Assembly: GCA_024742935.1 (NCBI GenBank)
Contig: JANSXN010000001.1
Span: 37,613-101,612 of the forward strand
Direction of reading: 5' to 3'
DNA: 64,000 nucleotides
Source: Flavobacteriaceae bacterium
GTDB lineage: Bacteria > Bacteroidota > Bacteroidia > Flavobacteriales > Flavobacteriaceae
Shown: positions 48,903-64,000 of the stretch, piece by piece
Layout: each line of letters starts with the position of its first letter
Numbering within the stretch: position 1 is the stretch's first letter
Program-made: the position numbers and the translations under genes
Notes under the pieces: model-generated
What the model was told of the DNA's origin: nothing
Databases searched by the model: none
What the model saw: only the letters and a program-made list of their open reading frames with translations

Positions 48903-49877
48903 ATGAAAGAAAAACACACCCTGCAACACTTTTTTTTATTTCTAAAAGGAATCGCTATGGGAGCAGCAGATGTCGTTCCTGGTGTATCTGGAGGAACCAT
49001 TGCTTTTATCTCAGGTATTTATGAAGAGTTGGTGTCTACCATTCATAATTTAAACTTTAGGTTTTTTTCAATTTGGAAAGAAAAGGGATTTCTAACTGCC
49101 TGGAAACTTTACAATCTTAGTTTTTTAGTAACTCTATTTGGCGGTGTTTTAACAAGCATACTCACTCTTGCAAAACTAATTGGATGGCTTCTTGAAAACC
49201 AGCCTATTTTAGTTTGGTCTTTCTTTTTTGGGCTTATTGTTGCAAGTATTGTCTATATTGGGAAACAAATAAAACTCTGGAATATAAAGATTATACTTGC
49301 TATTTTATTAGCAACTTTTGGCTCTTTCTACATTACACTTGCAGAACCAATGACCTCACCTGAAAGCAATTGGTATATTTTCTTTTCAGGGTTTATAGCT
49401 ATCATCGCGATGATACTTCCAGGGATATCTGGCTCATTTATTTTACTATTAATGGGTTCTTATGAAGTTATCTTAAAAACACTTAATAATTTCAGGGAAT
49501 CACTTTTTGAAGCAAATTGGGAACTATTGGGAGAGTCAATACTTAAATTAACTATCTTTTTAATCGGAGCCGTTATAGGTTTAAAGCTTTTTTCGGGTGT
49601 TCTCACCTGGCTTTTTAAAAACTTTAGAAACCTGACATTAGCTATTTTAACCGGCTTTATGATTGGTGCACTAAATAAGGTTTGGCCATGGAAAGATGTC
49701 CTTTCGTGGCGATTAAACAGTAGTGGTGAAAATGTACCTTTCCTGGAAGAAAGTGTTTTGCCCTCAGATTTTATTGGAAATCCACAACTCATAGGTGCAA
49801 TAATATCTATGCTTATAGGGTTTCTAAGTATATTTATTCTGGAAAGAATCGCTTCTAAAAAGGCAGAAAAAATATGA
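48903..49877 (+). CDS. DUF368 membrane protein (polyprenyl-phosphate transporter family)
   Basis: KGIAMGAADVVPGVSGGTIAFISGIYEELV; LPGISGSFILLLMGSY. Confidence 0.92.
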   Translation: MKEKHTLQHFFLFLKGIAMGAADVVPGVSGGTIAFISGIYEELVSTIHNLNFRFFSIWKEKGFLTAWKLYNLSFLVTLFGGVLTSILTLAKLIGWLLENQPILVWSFFFGLIVASIVYIGKQIKLWNIKIILAILLATFGSFYITLAEPMTSPESNWYIFFSGFIAIIAMILPGISGSFILLLMGSYEVILKTLNNFRESLFEANWELLGESILKLTIFLIGAVIGLKLFSGVLTWLFKNFRNLTLAILTGFMIGALNKVWPWKDVLSWRLNSSGENVPFLEESVLPSDFIGNPQLIGAIISMLIGFLSIFILERIASKKAEKI

Positions 49878-60949: not shown

Positions 60950-61014
60950 AATCACTTCAACCTCTGGCGAAAATCGTGAATGTTGTTTTGATTTTAATTC
61001 CAACATAAGTAACA

Positions 61015-61365
61015 ATGGAAGATTTAGTAAAATTTGTACAAGACGAATTCGTTTCCAAAAAAGAATTCCCAAAATTTAGTGCCGGTGATACCATCACGGT
61101 ATATTATGAAATTAGAGAAGGTGAAAAAACAAGAACACAGTTCTTTAGAGGAGTTGTGATTCAGTTAAGAGGAACCGGTTCTTCACAAACCTTTACCATC
61201 AGAAAAATGTCTGGAGATGTTGGTGTAGAACGTATCTTCCCAATCAACCTCCCGGCATTGCAAAAAATTGAAATCAATAAAAAAGGTAGTGTTCGCAGAA
61301 AACGTATTTTCTACTTCAGAGAACTTACCGGTAAGAAAGCAAAAATTAAAGAAAAAAGAAGTTAA
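61015..61365 (+). CDS. rplS: 50S ribosomal protein L19
   Basis: FSAGDTITVYYEIREGEKTRTQFFRGVVIQLRGTGSSQTFTIRKMSGDVGVERIFPI. Confidence 0.97.
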   Translation: MEDLVKFVQDEFVSKKEFPKFSAGDTITVYYEIREGEKTRTQFFRGVVIQLRGTGSSQTFTIRKMSGDVGVERIFPINLPALQKIEINKKGSVRRKRIFYFRELTGKKAKIKEKRS

Positions 61366-61392: not shown

Positions 61393-61417
61393 GCCTCGTT
61401 ATACGAGGCTTTTTTTA
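61393..61417 (+). terminator. Intrinsic terminator of rplS
   Basis: GCCTCG-TTATA-CGAGGC-TTTTTTT. Confidence 0.9.
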
Positions 61418-61474: not shown

Positions 61475-61505
61475 TTTGTATATTAAAAAGGAGACACTAT
61501 ATTTG
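61475..61505 (+). promoter_or_regulatory. Bacteroidetes promoter with exact consensus, no downstream ORF
   Basis: TTTG (61475-61478), 19 nt, TATATTTG (61498-61505). Confidence 0.75.
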
Positions 61506-61514
61506 AATATCAAA

Positions 61515-61783
61515 ATTACAATTCGAAGCAGTTAACACTAAATTGAAAAGGCATTTTGATCTTAATTTAAGTTCTTTGTCAAACTTTTTTATTTGCTTGA
61601 AATGCCAGTTCAAATCTCAGGATTACCGATTTGGCACTAGAATAAAAAAGCGTGGATAAAACTTTAATTTTGAAAACCGGTTTTCGGATTGGTGATTAGG
61701 AATTTTAAGTTGAAGTCCGTAAAATAGTTCACGATACAGGATCTGTAATAATCCTGTCTTGTCATCGCAAGATGAGTCGGCAA
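61515..61783 (+). repeat. Tandem module 1
   Basis: Starts attacaattcGAAGCAGTTAACACTAAATT, ends TTCACGATACAGGA...TCCTGTCTTGTCATCGCAAGATGAGTCGGCAA. Confidence 0.75.
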
Positions 61784-61801
61784 AGAGTTGTTTTATTTAA
61801 A

Positions 61802-62060
61802 AATACAGTTTGAAGCAGTTAACACTAAATTAAAATGTATTTTTTGACAAAGTGTCTTACTTTATGATGACTTTTACCGTTTGCCTGAGTATCATCTGGG
61901 TTTTCCGAAATTCAGCTCTGGTATGAGAATGTAAGAGTCAGGATAAAATCAAGTTTAAATACCCTTAGGGGTCGTTAAATGACGGTTTTAATCCAGTGAG
62001 GTAATTCACGATACAGGACTCATAATGATCCTGTCTTGTCATCGCAAGATGAGTCGGCAA
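61802..62060 (+). repeat. Tandem module 2
   Basis: Same 5' and 3' conserved blocks as module 1, diverged interior. Confidence 0.75.
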
Positions 62061-62075
62061 CGAATTATTATCAAG

Positions 62076-62107
62076 AAAGCCATCCACCTCTCGAGGCGGA
62101 TGGCTTT
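62076..62107. terminator. Strong terminator-like hairpin (possibly bidirectional)
   Basis: AAAGCCATCC-A-CCTC-TC-GAGG-C-GGATGGCTTT then T. Confidence 0.75.
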
Positions 62108-62317
62108 TGTCATTTAGTGGGTTTTGATATGATGCTTTGGAAATTGTTGGAGTATAATTATATATTGAATCCACCCCGATACCGCACTCCCGAAACTTAG
62201 AGGGCATCCTTTGGTTACCTGTTATCATTAAAAATTCTTCTCCACAACACAAAACGTAAGTTTTTGTAGCCGGGATGCTCTAAAAAAGTAACTATTTTAT
62301 TTCTGAAAATAAATCAC

Positions 62318-64000
62318 TTAATCCTGCCCGGCCAGCTGCTTAAATTTTCCTTTGCTTTTTCTAATGCGCACAGCAACCACTTTGTATTCAGGGCACTTGG
62401 CTTCAGAGTCGTGTACATCACCGGTAATCATATTAATCATTATTTCAGGAAAATGGAAGGTCGTGCTCAATACTCCTTGTTTAACCTCGTCAGTGATTCG
62501 GGCTTTGACATCCACTTTTCCTCGGGGTGACTCCACACAAACATAATCTCCTTCAGAAATAAAATGTGCTGAGGCGTCTGCCGGGTGTATCATCAAATAA
62601 TCATCTCCCAGTAGTTCTTCATTGGATGTTCTGCGTGTCATTGCGCCACAATTGTAATGCTCCAGCTCTCGGTTTGTGGTAAGTATGTATGGATAGTCTT
62701 TTGCGTTTTCAACCAATTCCTGGGTTTCGCGCCAGGGTTTAAAAATAAATTGACCTTTACCTATTTTAAAGGTTTCCTTGTGAAGAATTTGAGTGTCTGT
62801 TCCATCTTTTGCAACCGGCCATTGTTTTCCGTTTTTGCCTAAATTTTCCCATGTGATCCCTGCAAAGAAAGGAACAATTTGCGAAATTTCTTCCAACATT
62901 GTTTTGGGGTCATAATCAGGTTGTGGATAGCCCATTCGGTTCATTATATCTACAATAATTTGCCCGTCTGCTTTTGCCATTCCTGCAGGTTTTACAACTT
63001 GTCTTACCGCTTGAACACGTCGTTCACCATTGGTAAACGTGCCACTCTTTTCTAAAAAGGATGCTCCGGGAAGAACTACATCAGCATATTTTGCTGTTTC
63101 GGTCATAAACAATTCCTGAACAATCACTAAATCTGTATTTTCCAGGGCATTAATCACTTTTTGTGTGTTGGGGTCTGTTTGAACAATATCCTCACCAATC
63201 ACCCAAAGGGCTTTGAGTTTTCCCTTGAGTGCCGCATCAAACATTTCAGGAATTTTATAGCCAATGTGGCTGGGGACATCAACACCATAAAATGTGTTGT
63301 AAAGTTTATTAACTTCAGGTTTTGTAATGTCTAAATATCCGGCACCTTGATGCGGCTGAACACCCATATCTGCACTGCCTTGCACGTTGTTTTGACCGCG
63401 CAACGGATTTACGCCCACGCCTCTTCTACCAATATTTCCGGTTAGTAAGGCTAAATCAGCAATCTGCATCACAGTGAATGTGCCCTGAGAGTGTTCGGTA
63501 ACTCCTAAACCGTGAAATGACATCGCGTTAGGTGCTTTCGCGTAAGCAATTGCAGCTTCTTTTACAAGATTTCTATCAACTCCACTTACCTGTTCAATAT
63601 GGTCTAAATCTATTGCCTTTATTTCCTCAATGAAGTCATCATAACCCTCTGTGCGCGTTTCAATAAATGAGGTATCGACGAGACCTTCTTCAATGATATA
63701 ATACATCATCATATTAAGCACGGCAACATTGGTACCGGGTCTTAGCGGGATGTGATAGGTGGCATATTTTGCCAATTCTGTGCGTCGGGGGTCAATGACG
63801 ATGGACACATTTCCGGTTTTCATAGCAAACTGTTTCATTTTTGCTCCCGTCACCGGATGTGCATCAGTGGGATTTGCGCCAATCACAAGTATGCAATTGG
63901 TATCTTTGATATCATCTATAGAGTTTGTGGCTGCACCGGTCCCAAAAGTTCTTTGCATTCCCAGTGCTGTAGGTGAATGACATACCCGCGCACATCCATC
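62318..64000 (-). CDS. Molybdopterin oxidoreductase, formate dehydrogenase alpha-subunit-like (5' part outside the window)
   Basis: Open frame continues to the window edge (DGCARVCHSPTALGMQRTFGTGAATNSIDDI); IGANPTDAHPVTGAKMKQ, MSFHGLGVTEHSQGT, NPLRGQNNVQGSADMG. Confidence 0.93.
   Translation of the reverse strand, partial: DGCARVCHSPTALGMQRTFGTGAATNSIDDIKDTNCILVIGANPTDAHPVTGAKMKQFAMKTGNVSIVIDPRRTELAKYATYHIPLRPGTNVAVLNMMMYYIIEEGLVDTSFIETRTEGYDDFIEEIKAIDLDHIEQVSGVDRNLVKEAAIAYAKAPNAMSFHGLGVTEHSQGTFTVMQIADLALLTGNIGRRGVGVNPLRGQNNVQGSADMGVQPHQGAGYLDITKPEVNKLYNTFYGVDVPSHIGYKIPEMFDAALKGKLKALWVIGEDIVQTDPNTQKVINALENTDLVIVQELFMTETAKYADVVLPGASFLEKSGTFTNGERRVQAVRQVVKPAGMAKADGQIIVDIMNRMGYPQPDYDPKTMLEEISQIVPFFAGITWENLGKNGKQWPVAKDGTDTQILHKETFKIGKGQFIFKPWRETQELVENAKDYPYILTTNRELEHYNCGAMTRRTSNEELLGDDYLMIHPADASAHFISEGDYVCVESPRGKVDVKARITDEVKQGVLSTTFHFPEIMINMITGDVHDSEAKCPEYKVVAVRIRKSKGKFKQLAGQD

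Follow-up and report, generated by a model that had tools for sequence, protein, structure and literature searches.

Downstream of rplS, the gene for ribosomal protein L19, the 64,000-nt stretch of Flavobacteriaceae DNA analysed here (the window) contains what is very likely a genuine structured noncoding RNA (ncRNA) that is family-wide, absent from Rfam and tandemly duplicated at this locus, although no expression data are available. Homology, synteny, a secondary structure with covariation, the lack of coding potential and the lack of an Rfam family were all shown by computation. Flavobacteriaceae rank among the most common marine bacteria, and little work has been done on their RNA biology. 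A structured RNA, about 300 nt long or longer, that occupies a fixed locus in most surveyed genera, carries compensatory changes and is absent from Rfam suggests a widespread function that has gone unnoticed.

The locus downstream of rplS

The features of the locus and of its two RNA copies (modules) are listed below; R2 is a covariance model described in the next section, and features marked "sequence" were read from the sequence.

60958–60985, +: L19-Flavobacteria ribosomal leader (RF03130; 47.8 bits, gathering score 31.5)
61015–61365, +: rplS, 50S ribosomal protein L19 (TIGR01024, 132.5 bits); conserved upstream neighbour
61393–61417, +: rplS terminator (sequence; conserved in genus); separates rplS from the RNA unit
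61475–61505, +: promoter TTTG-N19-TATATTTG (sequence)
about 61510–61799, +: module 1, first copy of the structured RNA (internal homology, genus comparison, R2 match)
61584–61650, +: module 1 P4 stem-loop, arms 61584–61593/61641–61650, inner stem 61603–61607/61632–61636 (sequence)
61654–61718, +: module 1 P5 stem-loop, 61660–61664/61707–61711, closed by 61654–61657/61715–61718 (sequence and window fold)
61719–61792, +: module 1 3′ domain (R2 match 61719–61808, 34.6 bits, E 1e-5; covariation)
61724–61730/61785–61791 and 61732–61735/61776–61779, +: module 1 3′ domain helices P2 and P3
61736–61741/61752–61757 and 61762–61766/61771–61775, +: module 1 3′ domain hairpins H1 and H2 (GCAA loop)
about 61800–62071, +: module 2, second copy of the structured RNA (internal homology, genus comparison, R2 match)
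61849–61863, +: module 2 P1b-like hairpin AAAGU-gucuu-ACUUU (sequence; counterpart of the family hairpin)
61871–61937, +: module 2 P4 stem-loop, 61871–61877/61931–61937, inner 61890–61893/61920–61923 (sequence; conserved in genus)
61996–62070, +: module 2 3′ domain (R2 match 61996–62085, 35.7 bits, E 6e-6)
62001–62007/62062–62068 and 62009–62012/62053–62056, +: module 2 3′ domain helices P2 and P3
62013–62018/62029–62034 and 62039–62043/62048–62052, +: module 2 3′ domain hairpins H1 and H2
62076–62112, +: intrinsic terminator, arms 62076–62090/62093–62107 (conserved in genus and family)
62318–63958, −: fdhA, formate dehydrogenase alpha (TIGR01591, 602.6 bits); convergent neighbour

The promoter is an exact Bacteroidetes promoter, with TTTG at 61475–61478, a 19-nt spacer and the −7 box TATATTTG at 61498–61505, and a transcription start near 61508–61511 is inferred from sequence alone. 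The terminator reads GCCATCC...GGATGGC followed by TTTTG and is the counterpart of the family's AAGCCATATCA...TGATATGGCTTTT. The RF03130 leader lies upstream of rplS, outside the RNA unit, and marks most of the homologous loci as well. fdhA is the downstream gene in this genome, and relatives often have icd in that place; fdhA lacks its N-terminal part here, the contig ending where the window ends. The two modules are alike over 46 nt at 83% identity (61512/61799) and over 83 nt at 81% (61710/61987), their middles having diverged. The whole unit folds at −161.7 kcal/mol vs. −128.9 ± 6.1 kcal/mol for dinucleotide shuffles (z −5.4; 0/100).

Much of this had been proposed in an earlier note made without database searches. 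Its exact TTTG-N19-TAnnTTTG promoter at 61475–61505 held as stated, as did its hairpin terminator at 62076–62107 and its naming of rplS and formate dehydrogenase (TIGR01024, TIGR01591); its claim that the supplied list shows no plus-strand open reading frame in the unit also held, none longer than 39 aa being found inside the modules. The two tandem homologous modules with diverged middles were confirmed, with their limits (61515–61783 and 61802–62060) slightly corrected: each module measures about 270–290 nt once the closing helices are included. Its central claim of an undescribed ncRNA transcription unit finds support in the conserved promoter and terminator, family-wide synteny, compensatory changes and the absence of an Rfam match, with transcription itself inferred from the signals. 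The note had missed that the RNA is family-wide and that relatives commonly show the gene order rplS–RNA–icd.

Conservation, architecture and distribution of the RNA

The two-module unit is present downstream of rplS in all four other genomes of the genus (5/5 with the window); the −7 box is identical in all five, and the start GAATATCAAAA and the terminator are also conserved. Between close species, orthologous modules resemble each other more than the two modules inside one genome do (e.g., 93% vs. 65–68%), and the module 2 copies cluster together in the tree (support 83/90); the duplication therefore predates these species, the tree position of module 1 of genome G003 being unsure. The 3′ part of the genus modules forms two covarying hairpins, the first with arms TCATC/GATGA, TAATC/GATTA, and AAATC/GATTT and the second with arms CAGGA/TCCTG, CAGGT/ACCTG, and ATAGAAT/ATTCTAT. 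Across ten genus modules, 6 of the 12 pairs show changes in both partners, a count equalled by 1 of 500 shuffles.

A covariance model of this 3′ part built from the genus (R1) matched about ten other genera, and the relatives found with it revealed a larger fold, in which a helix (P2) encloses an internal loop (CAC/GGUAAC), a further helix (P3) and the hairpins H1 and H2. The second model, R2, was built from eight genera with the window genus left out; in 20 kb it finds both window modules, at E 6e-6 and 1e-5, which supports their identification as copies of one RNA family. R2 matches at least 38 of 400 family genomes and at least 23 of 237 genera, both counts being minima, since no more than a few candidates are scored in each genome searched. 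The gene directly upstream, on the same strand, is rplS in all R2 loci tested except L062, which lies at a contig edge, and L027, which has no rplS upstream and keeps downstream a gene that we take to be icd (NADP isocitrate dehydrogenase), as recognised from its sequence. Carriers include Ulvibacter, Altibacter, Aureitalea, Cochleicola, Marixanthomonas, Marinirhabdus, Halomarinibacterium, and Pukyongia, and outside the window genus the RNA is mostly single copy. Plain BLAST outside the genus returned nothing beyond short chance-level matches, and an exact 26-nt motif scan of named genomes returned no match.

Single-copy forms are 295–324 nt long and present, in order, TATC(A/G)A, P1, P1b, P4, P5, the 3′ domain, and the terminator; in other genera TAnnTT(T/A)G stands immediately 5′ of the conserved TATC(A/G)A. 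The 3′ domain consists of four helices, P2(P3(H1,H2)), P4 is a long stem-loop with an asymmetric internal loop, and the P1b hairpin AUAAAG-UAACGUU-CUUUAU is near-invariant across genera. Covariation within the 3′ domain is very strong: 10 of 24 pairs change on both sides in the eight non-window genera and 22 of 24 in an alignment of 44 matches, where 95% of cells are paired vs. 26–46% with the partners slid; in the P1 hairpin, six of seven pairs do so. Because alignment A5 was made against the model, its pair counts are biased toward the structure; alignments A2 and A4 were made without it, although the structure was read from them. Individual minimum-free-energy folds recovered P4, the terminator and the 3′ helices in 33/33 relatives, P1b in 30/33, P2 in 29/33, and P1 in 28/33. 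The register of P4 in the MAFFT alignment was too poor for pair counts, and P4 and P5 thus rest on individual folds. Length varies regardless of codons, which argues against a conserved protein.

The near-invariant unpaired pieces are UAACGUU (P1b loop), UAAUAA (H1 loop), and GGUAACG (internal loop); variants of the P1b loop are AGCGUU, GGCGUU, GACGUU, AAUGUU, UACGUU, UGCGUU, and CACGUU. The window modules hold P4, P5, and the 3′ domain. P4 has a counterpart in all 33 single-module relatives, and for module 1 the evidence for P5 is weaker than that for P4. P1b is degenerate in window module 1 and near-intact in module 1 of G001 and G002; window module 2 retains the hairpin with a changed loop sequence, and the palindrome is gone. 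A pseudoknot between the P1b loop and GGUAACG (CGUU/AACG) was rejected, as inspection showed it to be broken in window module 2 and in L061. At two loci of genus g205 (L051 and L053) the RNA lies downstream of rplS with P1b apparently lost or rearranged.

The region downstream of rplS was also surveyed for the P1b and terminator motifs in 60 Flavobacteriaceae genera, nearly all of them without an R2 match. One or both motifs occur in 45 of the 60: P1b in 31 (shuffle mean 1.6) and the AAGCCAT...ATGGCTTTT terminator in 41 (shuffle mean 0.0). The terminator test does not distinguish the strands: 15 reverse strands match too, as expected of a near-palindromic hairpin. Longer forms, with up to about 690 nt from the rplS stop to the terminator, were found, many with a P2-like helix beside the terminator; their link to the family rests on synteny, P1b, terminator, and P2, the model having given no significant match for them in whole genomes. 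Of 13 positive genomes, 12 contain a single copy of the 14-mer AAGTAACGTTCTTT, in each case at the locus downstream of rplS. Neither motif was found downstream of rplS in 13 genomes of the large genus g143, which we take by inference to be Flavobacterium, or in 19 genomes from other families, and R2 had no match genome-wide in g143. Two stray AAGTAACGTTCTTT matches in g143 were rejected, lying in or beside protein genes and without a terminator. Elsewhere in the window, a terminator-like hairpin with CAAGAAGCCATCC at 49182–49222 on the minus strand gave a weak R2 match (15.6 bits, E 0.16) and is likely a similar terminator, not the RNA.

Relation to known RNAs

The earlier note had seen no features of RNase P RNA, transfer-messenger RNA (tmRNA), SRP RNA or 6S RNA, and covariance-model searches upheld this; the Rfam comparison that it had suggested was run and gave no match at the RNA. 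With Rfam 15 (cmscan, lax thresholds, window and relatives), only chance-level matches below gathering scores were obtained at the RNA, and tmRNA, SRP RNA, and riboswitches had no cmscan match at the locus. 6S RNA (6S-Flavo, RF01685), which these genomes also encode as an independent, structured ncRNA, was rejected: it has no match at the locus, and the genome's own 6S-Flavo match is on another contig (G000:C50). RNase P RNA (RF00010) was rejected in the same way, with no match at the locus and RNase P at G000:C48. Flavo-1 (RF01705) is also a structured RNA motif of Bacteroidetes, but its sole match was sub-threshold (30.9 bits, cut-off 42) in one relative (L036:608–679), upstream of the rplS leader, rplS, and the RNA rather than at the RNA.

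Rfp18 and the other Rfp small RNAs (sRNAs) of Flavobacterium psychrophilum are likewise conserved, structured, independent sRNAs in Flavobacteriaceae, and Rfp18, the flavobacterial sRNA that has been studied best, controls protease mRNAs (PMC9723704). Rfp18's genus, represented by the Flavobacterium-like g143, appears to lack the RNA downstream of rplS by both locus and R2 search, and identity with Rfp18 is unsupported by locus or model; this evidence is indirect, no direct comparison with the Rfp18 sequence having been made. OLE, ROOL, and GOLLD (PMC12286853) are comparable as large, highly structured bacterial RNAs without a settled function, OLE also having protein partners; the RNA described here differs in being shorter (about 300 nt per copy), in occurring in other taxa and in having no Rfam match to those families. 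A search of the available literature found no paper on rplS-linked or marine flavobacterial ncRNAs and none that describes this RNA.

Proposed role and rival explanations

In the preferred reading, one transcription unit of ~600 nt, with a housekeeping-type promoter and an intrinsic terminator, would carry two tandem RNA copies. Transcription from 61475–61505 and action in trans as a free RNA are likely, the latter because the RNA comes with a promoter and terminator of its own and is followed by a gene that is not conserved; both are inferred, without transcript data. The RNA would fold co-transcriptionally into a compact multi-helix scaffold, whose near-invariant unpaired pieces (P1b UAACGUU, H1 UAAUAA, and the GGUAACG internal loop) may contact a partner. 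A protein partner is favoured since the fold is maintained although most of the sequence is not. Of the functions proposed, the most likely is thus a protein-binding scaffold or regulator, an inference that could as easily prove wrong as right, with no protein partner identified. Duplication in the window genus would then double the partner sites per transcript.

Ranked second is a trans-acting, base-pairing (antisense) sRNA in which the P1b loop or the loops of the 3′ domain would seed on mRNAs. The almost constant sequence of the P1b loop and stem across genera and the Flavobacterium precedent for this way of working, Rfp18 (PMC9723704), speak for it; however, most of the RNA keeps structure rather than sequence, no long unstructured seed is evident and the conserved hairpin loops are short. 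On balance it is less likely than not. A homo-oligomerising RNA, in which the palindromic AACGUU of P1b would form symmetric kissing loops and the tandem unit would be a covalent dimer, is unlikely. AACGUU is self-complementary, AGCGUU, GGCGUU, GACGUU, and AAUGUU remain so with G-U pairs, and symmetric kissing loops are a feature of OLE, ROOL, and GOLLD (PMC12286853), whereas the variants UACGUU, UGCGUU, and CACGUU are not self-complementary and the palindrome is lost in window module 2. A bolder, joint reading, in which the RNA dimerises via the P1b palindrome and also binds a common protein, the genus having made the dimer a covalent tandem with diverged halves, is also improbable; if true, it would describe a family-wide, RNA-scaffolded complex of a new class.

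A cis element, either a 3′ UTR or a leader, that acts on rplS or the gene that follows would fit the constant location, with rplS on one side and, in many relatives, icd on the other. This is very unlikely, given that the rplS terminator comes first, that the RNA is equipped with a promoter and terminator of its own, that the next gene here is the convergent fdhA and that L027 has no rplS upstream. A decayed gene or mobile-element relic without function, which the earlier note had named as a possible refutation, could account for the tandem repeat and the AT-rich sequence; it was not borne out, and compensatory changes, constant hairpins, family-wide synteny, and one copy per genome all but exclude it. 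Unless the alignment is wrong, the covariation refutes it.

The RNA lends itself to testing through its clean structure, single-copy position and cultured carriers (e.g., Ulvibacter litoralis, Altibacter, Marixanthomonas, and Aureitalea), and nature provides a ready-made tool in the covalent tandem. Another type of internal duplication was observed at L065, L067, and L069, where the P4 stem-loop (AATTGTTTGA...TTGAGATT) is tandemly doubled 5′ of the 3′ domain.
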